A stretch of 64,000 nt of DNA, from the NCBI RefSeq assembly GCF_002843235.3, contig NZ_CP031123.2, forward strand, positions 2,108,001-2,172,000, read 5' to 3'. The stretch's first letter is position 1. The number at the start of each line of letters is the position of its first letter. Below are positions 29,365 to 58,988 of the stretch, one piece after another. The notes below the pieces were generated by a model that was not told the DNA's origin, made no database searches, and saw only the letters and a program-made list of their open reading frames with translations. Source of the DNA: Providencia huaxiensis. GTDB lineage: Bacteria; Pseudomonadota; Gammaproteobacteria; Enterobacterales; Enterobacteriaceae. Both the position numbers and the translations under genes were made by a program.

Positions 29365-29424
29365 ATTGTTATTGAATTCATTGTTATTGAATTCATTGTT
29401 ATTGAATTCATTGTTATTGAATTC
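29365..29424. repeat. Four perfect 15-bp tandem repeats in the hutI leader
   Basis: The unit ATTGTTATTGAATTC (plus strand) is repeated four times without change, ending 11 nt from the hutI start codon. On the transcript each unit reads GAATTCAATAACAAT, and junctions create in-frame ATGs. Such arrays expand and contract by slippage. Confidence 0.95.
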
Positions 29425-29459
29425 AGTTTTAATCATTGTATTAATAAATAGTATAGATA

Positions 29460-54815: not shown

Positions 54816-55965
54816 TCTCGCTTCAATTTATTATTAAGGAAATAAAAATTAACAGATAATTACCTGCATATTTTATTTTTTATATTTATGTGTATAACAG
54901 TGATAATGCTATAGACGATTCAGCATATATCGGAAAGAATGATATACTACCCTTATAATTAGTTTCAACTAGTCCTAAATTGACATTGCAACTATGTAAC
55001 AAAGTATTTCATGCTATACATTATGCATTTAAAAGCAAAATAACACTTTAAAATCACTCAGTTACACCAAATATGTGTAATTTCATTTGATAGTAATCCA
55101 AAAGACACCCCTCCCCCCTCGGAATATTCATCTAAAAAAGACCCATATGGCCGATGTATAACCTAAAAATAAAGGAAATAAATAGAATTATTTAACACTG
55201 TAACAATATTAATGTTATTGATACAATTTAACATGGTCTGAAATGATAAAACCTGTATTCATGATACTTTTATGTAAAAAATAGTAAAAACAGTCAATTT
55301 TATCTCTAAAACTCTCTAATTTGACAAAATATCAGTACATTAAAAAACCAGCCAGTCTGTTACAATTAGTAAAATACTAAATTTTTAAAGTAGCAAAATA
55401 TGGATTTATTATATTCAAGTACCAAACATAACAAAACCATAACGTTAAGAAAGCTTATTATTCATTTTACTAGATGAATATCACAAAATTATGAAAAATA
55501 ATTTTCATCGACAATGCGTTTTTGATTTAACTGTTTTTTTGTTTTTTGCTGTGTGCAAACTGACGTAAAACTTCAAAAACAAACAAAATCACAGGATTTA
55601 TTGCTATATTATAGTATCTTACATTTACTATATAATAATATTCGTTTATAAAAAATTATATTTACTTTTTCTATCCCACACTCGATATTTATCCTCGCAG
55701 CTTTATTCTCTCATTTATACATAGTGAAATCATTATATTCTATAACGCACCAAATATATCCTGCTAGTACCATATTGAAACTTAGATGTAAGTACTAAAG
55801 GACTTTTATAAGATACATTCTGAATTATTCTGCATATAAAGCGAGTGACGCGATCATTAATTTTTGCCCCTTTATCATGCTACTTAGAGAATGTAACTTA
55901 CAAAACATGTGTATATTCGTTAGATTTAATTTGTAATAAAGTTATGTTTGATTTCTAATGACTTG
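54816..55965. other. AT-rich gene-free region
   Basis: About 1.15 kb without any convincing gene on either strand. It is strongly AT-rich with scattered stop codons in all frames. It must contain the promoter of the MrpJ-like gene and the end of the tRNA-repeat transcript. A 26-codon frame at about 55400 lacks a ribosome-binding site. The composition suggests H-NS-bound or decayed foreign DNA. Confidence 0.5.
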
Positions 55966-55967
55966 AG

Positions 55968-56626
55968 ATGGTGGGTCGTGCAGGATTTAAATTCTGCGAA
56001 TTTAGCCTTCGGCCTGAACCTGCAACCAGCTTGTCGAGGTATGTCTTAGCGACTGAGTGTTTACTTGATTGGGGATGTATTCGAATTTACGACTTTGAGA
56101 TGATGGGTCGTGCAGGATTTAAATTCTGCGAATTTAGCCTTCGGCCTGAACCTGCAACCAGCTTATCGAGGTATGTCTTAGCGACTGAGTGTTTACTTGA
56201 TTGGGGATGTATTCGAATTTACGACTTTGAGATGGTGGGTCGTGCAGGATTTAAATTCTGCGAATTTAGCCTTCGGCCTGAACCTGCAACCAGCTTATCG
56301 AGGTATGGCTTAGCGACAGAGTATTTACTTGATTGGGGATGTATTCGAATTTTCGACTTTGAGATGGTGGGTCGTGCAGGATTTAAATTCTGCGAATTTA
56401 GCCTTCGGCCTGAACCTGCAACCAGCTTATCGAGGTATGTCTTAGCGACTGAGTATTTACTTGACTGGGGATGTATTCGAATTTACGACTTTGAGATGGT
56501 GGGTCGTGCAGGATTTAAATTCTGCGAATTTAGCCTTCGGCCTGAACTTGCAACCAGCTTGTCGAGGTATGCTTAGCGACTGAGTGTTTACTTGATTGGG
56601 GATGTATTCGAATTTACGACTTTGAG
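55968..56626 (-). repeat. Five tandem units carrying tRNA-Lys 3' ends (rtT-like array)
   Basis: Five direct repeats begin at 55968, 56100, 56232, 56364 and 56496. Their lengths are 132, 132, 132, 132 and 131 bp (the last lacks one T), and they run directly into the tRNA-Lys gene at 56628. In the tRNA's direction of transcription every unit ends with AATCCTGCACGACCCACCA, the last 19 nt of tRNA-Lys including CCA; one unit has a C-to-T change in CCCACCA. Upstream of that, the T-arm is altered to GCAGAATTTAAATCCTGC. Units differ at only a few positions. The same design (tRNA 3' end plus spacer, tandemly repeated after the tRNA) is known from E. coli tyrT. Because 132 is 44 codons, the plus strand is open for 202 codons, but this is judged not to be a gene. 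Confidence 0.93.
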
Positions 56627-56627
56627 A

Positions 56628-56703
56628 TGGTGGGTCGTGCAGGATTCGAACCTGCGACCAATTGATTAAAAGTCAACTGCTCTACCGACTGAGCTAACGA
56701 CCC
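56628..56703 (-). tRNA. tRNA-Lys (TTT), promoter-distal copy
   Basis: A 76-nt tRNA with encoded CCA: acceptor GGGTCGT, D-arm TTAGCTCAGTTGGTAGAGC, anticodon loop CTTTTAA (TTT), T-arm GCAGGTTCGAATCCTGC. It is the last gene of the Val-Val-Val-Lys-Lys operon and abuts the repeat array. Confidence 0.97.
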
Positions 56704-56740
56704 ATCTGGATTACTTCTTTTTACTACTAGAGGCTTTAGA

Positions 56741-56816
56741 TGGTGGGTCGTGCAGGATTCGAACCTGCGACCAATTGATTAAAAGTCAACTGCTCTACCG
56801 ACTGAGCTAACGACCC
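56741..56816 (-). tRNA. tRNA-Lys (TTT)
   Basis: A 76-nt gene identical to the next tRNA-Lys copy, 37 nt upstream of it in the transcript. Anticodon TTT, CCA encoded. Confidence 0.97.
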
Positions 56817-56853
56817 ATCTAAATTTGTGTTTTAATGCGAGTAATGAATGAAG

Positions 56854-56929
56854 TGGTGGGCGATAGCGGGCTCGAACCACTGACCCCCTCCTTGTAAGGG
56901 AGGTGCTCTACCAACTGAGCTAATCGCCC
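56854..56929 (-). tRNA. tRNA-Val (TAC), third copy
   Basis: A 76-nt tRNA: acceptor GGGCGAT, anticodon loop CTTACAA (TAC), CCA encoded. One of three identical copies, matching the valU-valX-valY arrangement next to lysV and gltX in E. coli. Confidence 0.97.
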
Positions 56930-56966
56930 ACTTCATGACTTATACTACCACATTGTAATAAATAAT

Positions 56967-57042
56967 TGGTGGGCGATAGCGGGCTCGAACCACTGACCCC
57001 CTCCTTGTAAGGGAGGTGCTCTACCAACTGAGCTAATCGCCC
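56967..57042 (-). tRNA. tRNA-Val (TAC), second copy
   Basis: A 76-nt tRNA identical to its two neighbours; anticodon TAC, CCA encoded; 26 nt after the first copy. Confidence 0.97.
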
Positions 57043-57068
57043 AATTATTTATCATTCATCGTCAACGG

Positions 57069-57144
57069 TGGTGGGCGATAGCGGGCTCGAACCACTGACC
57101 CCCTCCTTGTAAGGGAGGTGCTCTACCAACTGAGCTAATCGCCC
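57069..57144 (-). tRNA. tRNA-Val (TAC), first copy of the operon
   Basis: A 76-nt tRNA closest to the promoter at 57163-57190. Anticodon TAC, CCA encoded. Confidence 0.97.
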
Positions 57145-57566
57145 CGTCGTCGATGGAGGTGCATTATAGGGATACTGAGTTCTGAGTCAACGCTTTTTCA
57201 ATAGATTTTTTTCGTTCGTTGCAAAAATAATCAAGATGTTTCAATATTCGCCAGAAAAGCCGCCTTTTTAATCAATTACCTATCATTTTCTCGTTATTCT
57301 TTTAAGAAAAAACATAAACTATTTTTAAAGCGTATTTATTTATGTCAAATTTGGCGAAACAAACTAATTTCTTGCCTTCTATTCTGATAACTTGATTGAG
57401 GAATCATTGTAGGATGATAGAATAGATATACATTTTAGCAATGCTTAGACATTTCACTGCTTAGAACATCAAACTCGCCATCAAGTCAATTGTGCCTGTT
57501 TTTAGTCTTCTAAACAGTAAACAGATAAGCGCTTCAAAAACATGTTTTGCAATTAAGGCAATCTCG
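57145..57566. promoter_or_regulatory. tRNA-Val/gltX divergent region
   Basis: A 422-bp gap with the tRNA operon promoter near its left end and the gltX promoter on the right. No further gene is convincing. Confidence 0.6.
57163..57190 (-). promoter_or_regulatory. Promoter of the tRNA-Val/Lys operon
   Basis: On the minus strand TTGACT, a 16-bp spacer and a perfect TATAAT, followed by a GC-rich start (GCACCTCC) as expected for a stringently controlled stable-RNA promoter. It lies 19 nt upstream of the first tRNA-Val. Confidence 0.88.
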
Positions 57567-58988
57567 ATGAGTAAAATCAAAACCCGTTTTGCGCCAAGCC
57601 CAACTGGCTATTTACACGTTGGTGGTGCACGTACCGCTCTGTATTCCTGGTTATTTAGTCGCCACAATCAGGGCGAATTTGTCCTGCGTATTGAAGATAC
57701 TGACTTAGAACGCTCAACTCAGGAAGCTATCGATGCCATTATGGACGGTATGAACTGGTTGAATTTAAATTGGGATGAAGGCCCGTACTATCAGACTAAA
57801 CGCTTTGACCGTTATAATGATGTCATTGACCAAATGTTAGATGCAGGTACCGCTTATCGTTGTTATTGTTCGAAAGAGCGCTTAGAAGCTTTGCGTGAAG
57901 AGCAAATGGCAAATAACGAAAAGCCTCGTTATGATGGCTGCTGCCGTGACCATGCCCACAACCATACACCTGATGAGCCACACGTTGTTCGTTTCCGTAA
58001 CCCACAAGAAGGTTCCGTTATTTTTGACGACAAAATTCGTGGGCCAATTGAATTTAGTAACCAAGAGCTGGACGATTTAATTATTCGTCGTACTGATGGT
58101 TCACCAACTTACAACTTCTGTGTGGTTATTGATGACTGGGATATGGAAATTACCCACGTTATCCGTGGTGAAGACCATATCAACAACACGCCTCGCCAAA
58201 TCAACATTCTAAAAGCATTAGGGGCACCAGTGCCTGTGTATGCTCACGTTTCGATGATCCTAGGTGATGATGGTAAAAAACTGTCAAAACGCCATGGTGC
58301 TGTTAGCGTTATGCAATATCGTGATGATGGTTACTTGCCGCAAGCACTTCTTAACTATTTAGTGCGTTTAGGTTGGTCTCATGGCGACCAAGAGATTTTC
58401 ACTGTTGATGAAATGAAAGAATATTTCAGCCTTGATGCTATCAGTAAATCAGCAAGCGCGTTTAACACTGAAAAACTACAATGGTTAAACCATCATTATA
58501 TCAATACATTACCAGCAGAAGAAGTTGCAACCTATCTTGCATGGCATATTGAACAACAGAATATTGATACCAGCACAGGGCCTCAATTAGTTGATCTAAT
58601 CAAATTACTGGGTGAACGTTGCAAAACATTGAAAGAAATGGCCGAATCTTGCCACTATTTCTACCAAGATTTTGACGAGTTTGATGCAGATGCTGCTAAG
58701 AAACATTTGCGCCCAGTCGCTCGCCAGCCATTAGAAGTGGTAAAAGTTAAGTTAGCTGCGATCACTGATTGGACGGCTGAAAATGTTCACCAAGCTATTG
58801 AAGCGACAGCAGCTGAGTTAGAAGTGGGCATGGGTAAAGTGGGTATGCCTTTACGTGTCGCTGTGACAGGTGCTGGCCAATCTCCAGGCCTAGATGTCAC
58901 TGTTCACGCTATCGGCCAAGCTCGTTCTATCGCTCGTATTGAAAAAGCCTTAGCGTTTATTGCTGAACGTGAAGCTTCTGCTCAATAA
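57567..58988 (+). CDS. gltX: Glutamyl-tRNA synthetase GltX
   Basis: A 473-residue class I synthetase (471 in E. coli) that charges tRNA-Glu. It has the HIGH-type motif [17 protein letters not shown] (about 10-26), a zinc-type CYCSKE...GCCRDH region (about 98-128) and the KMSKS-type motif [11 protein letters not shown] (about 235-245). The ATG at 57567 follows AAGG and gives the canonical N-terminus [14 protein letters not shown]; the longer upstream frame is not conserved. It is divergent from the tRNA operon, as in E. coli. Confidence 0.97.

Follow-up and report, generated by a model that had tools for sequence, protein, structure and literature searches.

The window analyzed here is a stretch of 64,000 nucleotides from Providencia huaxiensis (contig NZ_CP031123.2, positions 2,108,001 to 2,172,000). 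On its reverse strand lies a tRNA operon with the gene order Val, Val, Val, Lys, Lys, as called by ARAGORN (Table 1). An open reading frame at 57492-58988, identified by eye as gltX, is divergent from this Val3-Lys2 operon, and the same arrangement is found for gltX and valUXY-lysV in Escherichia coli K-12. The promoter-like site upstream of the tRNA operon is a consensus match only, and the scan that detected it gave 7 sites versus 5.9 in shuffled sequences. Five direct repeats of 131, 132, 132, 132, and 132 bp (55969-56627, reverse strand) abut the last tRNA-Lys(UUU) gene. The array was also detected by TRF, with a period of 132 and 97% matches. The 3′ end of tRNA-Lys, AATCCTGCACGACCCACCA (nt 58-76), closes all five units, with one mismatch in unit 4. 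An earlier, sequence-only reading of this locus had described five 131-132 bp units behind the last tRNA of the operon, each carrying the 19-nt 3′ end of tRNA-Lys and one of them having one mismatch; the repeat and tRNA calls agree with both statements. The interval given in that reading, 55968..56703, does cover the array, but it starts one base too low and includes the last tRNA-Lys gene.

No terminator-like site was found by the scan in the region 55400-57500, which includes the stretch before the array. The units of the window were not called as tRNAs by ARAGORN or by the Rfam tRNA model, and none of them forms a complete tRNA-Lys cloverleaf. A protein-coding repeat was considered and rejected. 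A frame of 202 aa (55968-56576, forward strand) is open across the five units because 132 is divisible by 3, but this frame lies on the strand opposite to the tRNAs, and inspection gave nothing in its favor. Elsewhere in the window, at 29365-29425, a perfect 15-bp tandem repeat with 4.1 copies (ATTGTTATTGAATTC) was found.

Table 1. Features of the tRNA operon and of the adjoining repeat array (positions in the window).
Feature	Position	Strand	Details
Promoter-like site upstream of the tRNA operon	57163..57190	-	TTGACT-16-TATAAT, 11/12 consensus matches
tRNA-Val(UAC) 1	57069..57144	-	ARAGORN, Rfam tRNA
tRNA-Val(UAC) 2	56967..57042	-	ARAGORN, Rfam tRNA
tRNA-Val(UAC) 3	56854..56929	-	ARAGORN, Rfam tRNA
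tRNA-Lys(UUU) 1	56741..56816	-	ARAGORN, Rfam tRNA
tRNA-Lys(UUU) 2, host whose tail is copied	56628..56703	-	ARAGORN, Rfam tRNA
Unit 1, 131 nt	56497..56627	-	T-stem 5′ strand 56547-56551 (GCAAG, one change), P5 56532-56542, P6 56517-56531, tail 56497-56515
Unit 2, 132 nt	56365..56496	-	T-stem 5′ strand 56415-56419, P5 56400-56410, P6 56385-56399, tail 56365-56383
Unit 3, 132 nt	56233..56364	-	T-stem 5′ strand 56283-56287, P5 56268-56278, P6 56253-56267, tail 56233-56251
Unit 4, 132 nt	56101..56232	-	T-stem 5′ strand 56151-56155, P5 56136-56146, P6 56121-56135, tail 56101-56119 (one mismatch, CCCATCA)
Unit 5, 132 nt	55969..56100	-	T-stem 5′ strand 56019-56023, P5 56004-56014, P6 55989-56003, tail 55969-55987
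Start of a further unit, where the repeat ends	55963..55968	-	Six bases, TCTCAA, after the last tail

The short units share one order of elements: a variable leader, the remains of a D-arm, GCAGG-TTC, the hairpins P5 and P6, and the tail, which runs from T-loop nt 58/59 to CCA. GCAGG is a copy of the 5′ strand of the tRNA's own T-stem and pairs with CCTGC of the tail. The hairpins P5 and P6 occupy the position of the T-loop in the Providencia units and covary. Among 54 distinct cores, which come from closely related sequences, 97.2% of 810 cells (15 pairs) were paired, as compared with 88.3% in shuffles. Both sides were changed in 68 cells versus 23.5 in shuffles, and sliding the pairing partner made the pairing score collapse. 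Pairs with both sides changed numbered 6 of 15 versus 4.2 in shuffles, a value equalled by 14 of 500, and further pair types did not exceed expectation (16 versus 15.4, reached by 243 of 500). The Providencia cores contain 96 G-U and 4 A-C cells, two pairs giving most of the G-U cells (51 and 32 in one alignment); such an excess is expected if the tRNA-sense strand folds. The stand-alone folding energy of single units is not unusual (z from -1.1 to +0.3).

A D-arm remnant, CTCAGTCGGT, is kept in the units. For 26 of the 54 cores, at most 2 of 200 shuffles scored as high in a comparison of this region with the tRNA D-arm. The test gave 15.2 for tRNA-Lys, 12.8 for a tRNA-Val control, and 10.3 for shuffles; since the control is nearly as high, the signal of descent from tRNA-Lys is modest. 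Additionally, pseudo-tRNA-Lys sequences with a hairpin insert in the T-loop were found beside or between true tRNA-Lys genes at the loci L009, L016, L018, L023, L024, L032, L033, L034, L037, and L038. These forms keep most of the tRNA body, mostly contain two hairpins, and have mostly lost the 3′ acceptor strand. At L024, a CCA-ended form is kept.

The units are conserved across the genus. The sequence-only reading had suggested that one unit be searched against genomes of Providencia and two other genera, and for Providencia this search gave matches in 18 of 24 genomes. A covariance model of the 54 distinct cores, herein referred to as R1, had matches in 21 of the 24 genomes at E up to 0.001 (15 above 90 bits), the weaker ones including pseudo-tRNA forms (e.g., G023:C1:1058398) and one RtT unit; the R1 match in genome G015 overlaps an RtT match. 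The Rfam model of RtT, RF00391, had matches in 10 of the 24 genomes, 9 of them over the cut-off. Taken together, R1 or RF00391 matches were found in 23 of the 24 genomes, G021 being included solely through RF00391 matches below the cut-off, and G019 had a match to neither model. In total, 25 arrays with units behind tRNA-Lys were found in 16 Providencia genomes, loci without a unit behind the last tRNA-Lys being excluded from this set. The arrays contain 1 to 6 intact copies, and their units are 102 to 173 nt long, save one 86-nt copy. At L022, the unit tail shows the same change as the differing tail of its tRNA-Lys.

A second locus in the genome of the window has one intact unit and a truncated copy behind another tRNA-Lys pair. 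Misassembly, named in the sequence-only reading as an outcome that would speak against the array, was rejected on the grounds of this second locus and of like arrays in independent Providencia genomes. Regarding the tRNAs themselves, the tail of tRNA-Lys reads CCCGCACGGCCC at L022 and L037 (genomes G016 and G007); at L037, GCAGG is retained as the T-stem 5′ strand, which, as judged by eye, gives an A-C mismatch in the tRNA T-stem. Outside Providencia, further R1 matches in the family sample of 119 genomes were found in G077 and G035 only, and neither counts as the short subtype. The G077 matches (L156, L160) are 3′-half fragments of tRNA-Lys, with no ARAGORN tRNA in the stretch, and are perhaps attachment-site copies of an integrated element. 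There is likewise no ARAGORN tRNA in the stretch with the G035 match.

In E. coli K-12, rtT (gene rttR) consists of tandem 178-nt units behind tyrV, which end in 19 nt of tRNA-Tyr and have an insert at the T-loop. Comparison with this locus bore out the earlier proposal that the array has the same architecture as the E. coli tyrT repeats. Like RtT, the window's units are arranged in tandem directly behind a tRNA gene, end in its 3′ end (host nt 58/59-76), and carry a multi-hairpin insert at the T-loop; their two hairpins stand where RtT has its last two, P5 (CCCGNAGGG type) and P6. RtT is also found on tRNA-Lys. In other Providencia, longer units on tRNA-Lys (L020, L033, L034) score 94.6-105.4 bits with RF00391; scores reach 107.3 bits elsewhere in the genus, and some of those loci were read. 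In K-12, an RtT unit lies behind lysV, the equivalent place, with 47.3 bits (cut-off 45). At L033, 171-nt RtT and 102-nt short units alternate in a single array. In intermediate forms, the insert has two hairpins, which align with the final pair of hairpins in RtT. For four such forms (L033, L016, L024, L022), the alignment to RtT inserts reached z 19-22; the insert of the window's units resembles RtT weakly (z 3.5), and no RtT likeness was seen for 3 of 14 short inserts (z below 2), all of these z-scores being inflated as means over many related targets.

The window's units also differ from RtT. They are 131-132 nt long, versus 171-178 nt in RtT, and their insert consists of P5 and P6 only, the central RtT hairpins P3/P4 (GAGCGAAGCGAG, CGTTGC..GCAACG) being absent. 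Reading of the window's units did not reveal the re-paired 5′ arm of RtT, in which P1 and P2 complement host nt 49-69 and GA stands opposite GA; in these units, the strand that closes the tail is the T-stem strand of the tRNA itself. RF00391 gave no match to the window's units at the gathering cut-off (45 bits), none in L001 at E up to 1, and none in the window's own genome at E up to 0.001. The short unit is not a member of RF00391 as defined, and it is likely a reduced relative of RtT. An independent or distantly related instance had been suggested from the sequence alone: distant relationship is the better description, given the RtT units on tRNA-Lys in relatives, the mixed array at L033, and the alignment of the intermediate inserts with the last two RtT hairpins. 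The accompanying remark that no description existed at this locus does not hold in view of the K-12 RtT unit after lysV and of the RtT-family RNAs near Lys and Asn tRNA genes of Actinobacillus, for which the available text of PMC4986893 reports detection by Northern blot.

RF00391 matches were found in 67 of the 119 genomes of the family (65 over the cut-off) and in 52 of the 247 genomes of the order (34 over the cut-off). The family matches form at least 97 clusters, of which 92 were read and five, at contig ends, were left out; for the order, 60 loci were chosen from the matches, spread over families. Among the family matches listed, the nearest upstream tRNA of 144 units was Tyr (80 units), Pro (36), or Lys (28). 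The order set adds the Ser, Arg, and Glu tRNAs and one tmRNA as hosts. The tmRNA unit has 15 of 18 matches to the last 18 nt of the tmRNA; this unit and the Arg units with a matching tail are below the Rfam cut-off and are therefore regarded as RtT-like rather than as accepted RtT. At argQ of K-12 (L269), the tRNA-Arg tail occurs again 116 bases on, with a partial RtT match of 43.9 bits, below the cut-off of 45.

The copied tail has a sharp boundary. For the 206 distinct units with a CCA-ended host, the last 18 nt were copied exactly in 144, and at least 16 of them matched in 171. Among the 183 units with at least 14 tail matches, to which the position profile is confined (the other 23 having a tail below 14 of 18), identity with the host is 0.94-0.99 at nt 76-59, 0.50 at nt 58, and 0.01 at nt 57. 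The rule for host assignment gave three units to Val in error; these have a Lys tail, and their match starts within the following tRNA-Lys. Five loci of the order set were first found without an upstream tRNA. The tmRNA accounts for one of these, and for two others tRNAs were found once longer stretches were read. The remaining two showed no tRNA in the stretches read: an array in G369 (L233/L261) of four units, RtT or RtT-like, that have a Ser-type tail, with approximately 5 kb read upstream, and a weak match (L228/L264). Units lacking a tail would be under-sampled, since the tail is part of the Rfam model. In E. coli, a Pro-type unit used as query had matches in 5375 of 5426 genomes, with a median of 6 places, and the eight matches listed were all annotated as RtT sRNA. 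One of these eight, with a tRNA-Pro-type tail (L267, NZ_AP017610.1), is located between dppA and an IS3 transposase gene, with no tRNA in the stretch. This copy is annotated as "processed from tyrT transcript".

In sequence, the 5′ part of RtT is similar to the reverse complement of host nt 49-69, and GA stands opposite GA. The first and second motifs of the GA region were found in 157 and 152 of the 183 RtT units, respectively, and GA is kept in 141 of each; the available text of PMC7657543 likewise mentions a tandem GA motif in RtT. In a fixed window, pairing with the unit's own tail was better than with the tail of a random other host in 72 of 73 Tyr, 36 of 37 Lys, 30 of 38 Pro, 22 of 23 Ser, 3 of 3 Glu, and 4 of 9 Arg units, and the same comparison for the P2 strand gave 73/73, 31/37, 34/38, 22/23, 3/3, and 4/9; since units of one array are not independent, all such counts are not probabilities. 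In a position-free test, the own tail exceeded every swapped tail in 66/73 Tyr, 34/37 Lys, 2/38 Pro, 10/23 Ser, 3/3 Glu, and 8/9 Arg units. The Pro units fail this test, with 17 of 38 above the mean of the swapped tails and 2 of 38 above all. All nine Arg units were better than this mean; their failure in the fixed window (4/9) arises because the strand lies elsewhere, and Arg fits only with the strand placed next to P4. A direct copy of host nt 49-58 was better than that of a random other host in 69 of 73 Tyr (2 worse), 32 of 37 Lys (1 worse), and 33 of 38 Pro units (0 worse), and was weak for Ser (11 of 23, 6 worse) and Arg (3 of 9, 2 worse). In most host types, the unit has a second strand complementary to the copied tail.

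Terminators are distributed unevenly among the hosts. According to our own terminator rule, a terminator is located between the tRNA and the first RtT unit at 21 of 21 Pro, 8 of 19 Lys, and 0 of 51 Tyr loci of the family set; one of the 92 family loci, with a spacer over 250 nt, was excluded from this count, and the 60 loci of the order set lie outside it. None of the 25 Providencia arrays has a terminator before the first unit, and 5 have one within 350 nt after the array. At proK (L266) and lysV (L268) of K-12, a strong intrinsic terminator precedes the RtT unit, and a repeat of this terminator follows the tail of the unit. Units behind such terminators, on Pro and Lys hosts, are reached only by read-through. 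Hence, obligate production of RtT RNA as a by-product of tRNA processing cannot be the general case, and with terminators at all Pro and 8 Lys loci simple excision cannot hold for all relatives. The ratio of G-U to A-C was 51 to 1 for Pro, 6 to 3 for Lys, 7 to 2 for Ser, and 17 to 24 for Tyr, the Tyr count resting on a poor alignment; as these counts differ by host, the strand argument is mixed for RtT.

In Actinobacillus, Northern blots gave signals for RtT-family RNAs located near Asn and Lys tRNA genes, and promoter elements were reported close upstream of all candidates (PMC4986893), which favors an own promoter there over release from the tRNA transcript. Two of these RNAs, Arrc20 and Arrc21 of Actinobacillus pleuropneumoniae (PMC4986893), are RtT-family RNAs found, like the window's array, at a Lys tRNA gene, and were detected by RT-PCR, Northern blot, and RNA-seq. 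However, they are described as lying upstream of the tRNA gene and having their own promoter elements, and the available text of that paper mentions neither a copy of the host tail nor tailored arms. In Thioalkalivibrio, RtT was reported to be up at 10 degrees (PMC8092127).

With moderate confidence, the units of the array are interpreted here as tRNA-trailer elements that belong to a short, RtT-related subtype of Providencia with two hairpins; they would form the 3′ end of the Val3-Lys2 transcript and would probably be cut at CCA. The array is probably transcribed and would be read as the 3′ end of this transcript. The copied 3′ strand of the T-stem and the GCAGG strand would pair, with P5 and P6 replacing the T-loop, and would form a T-arm-like knob with a CCA end. 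RNase E, followed by 3′ exonucleases, may cut at or after each CCA and so release RNAs of about 130 nt. Recombination between identical tails would change the copy number, and conversion with the tRNA gene would keep the tail of the unit identical to that of its host. The freed RNA may also have a function. Some external transcribed spacers of tRNAs act as sponges, among them 3′ETS-leuZ of E. coli, a spacer RNA freed in tRNA 3′ processing, as the units here would be. We know of no tail copy, tandem units, or shared hairpins in 3′ETS-leuZ.

Beyond the window, it is conceivable, although doubtful, that RtT and the short Providencia units constitute one family of site-specific tRNA-gene elements, in which a conserved hairpin insert is placed between T-loop nt 58 and 59 of a copied tRNA end and the arms are rewritten for each host (Tyr, Lys, Pro, Ser, Arg, Glu, and tmRNA). 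In such a family, the Providencia form, including the pseudo-tRNA-Lys sequences with the insert in a body that is otherwise tRNA-like, would be a fossil link between tRNA and RtT.

The sharp nt 58/59 boundary over several tRNA types would also be expected if the units were DNA-level repeats, that is, selfish or neutral elements inserted at the T-loop site of tRNA genes (between nt 58 and 59) without damage to the tRNA and with arms re-tailored to the host, the RNA fold mattering little or the hairpins acting as single-stranded DNA. Such repeats would fit the terminators found before the first RtT unit on Pro and Lys hosts and repeated after it at proK and lysV of K-12, the patchy distribution and variable copy number, the weak stand-alone folds of the window's units, and the array with a Ser-type tail in stretches without a tRNA. 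However, no clean right-hand boundary was seen, the last copies being cut at varying points, and the Tyr and Providencia arrays have no terminator before the first unit. The bias of G-U over A-C in the Providencia and Pro units and the discrete RtT RNAs (detected according to the available text of PMC4986893) also argue against DNA-level repeats, as does the retention of GA opposite GA (141/157 and 141/152), which plain palindrome repair is expected to erase. We consider this explanation rather unlikely.

Another candidate explanation is decay, with the units being functionless pseudo-tRNA-Lys copies that acquired a T-loop insertion and were amplified by unequal crossing-over. The surviving D-arm remnant and the pseudo-tRNA-Lys forms with a like hairpin insert, located by or between true tRNA-Lys genes in Providencia, are in line with such an origin. 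Nevertheless, decay does not explain the covariation of P5 and P6 across species, units or RtT persist in 23 of the 24 Providencia genomes, and the tRNA-Val control was only somewhat lower in the D-arm test; we consider this origin unlikely. Known attachment blocks of tRNA genes span the T-loop to CCA, the same extent as the copied block, and the G077 fragments lack an ARAGORN tRNA in the stretch, but it is highly improbable that the tails represent attB sites of tRNA-integrating elements, whether left over or acting as decoys, as the same conserved insert occurs at many tRNA types and neither the array form nor the covarying hairpins would be explained.

RtT at other tRNA operons, including those of E. 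coli, is already in print (PMC4986893), and the occurrence on several hosts is therefore not new. No published description was found of the short Providencia subtype, of the exact nt 58/59 boundary across hosts, or of the host-following arms, in a search whose scope left aside the older tyrT papers. A stringent-response effect of RtT, from a 1991 paper, is cited in PMC4986893, and in the available text of an E. coli sRNA screen no effect is given for RttR (PMC4606813). Since the unit carries the host tail and, in most hosts, a strand complementary to it, any functional model must explain the tail copy. Regarding annotation, one E. coli copy with a tRNA-Pro-type tail is labeled as processed from tyrT, and the Rfam model misses the Providencia subtype. 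For the biology of the family, the versions without a preceding terminator (Tyr and Providencia Lys) versus those behind a terminator (Pro) constitute a natural experiment.
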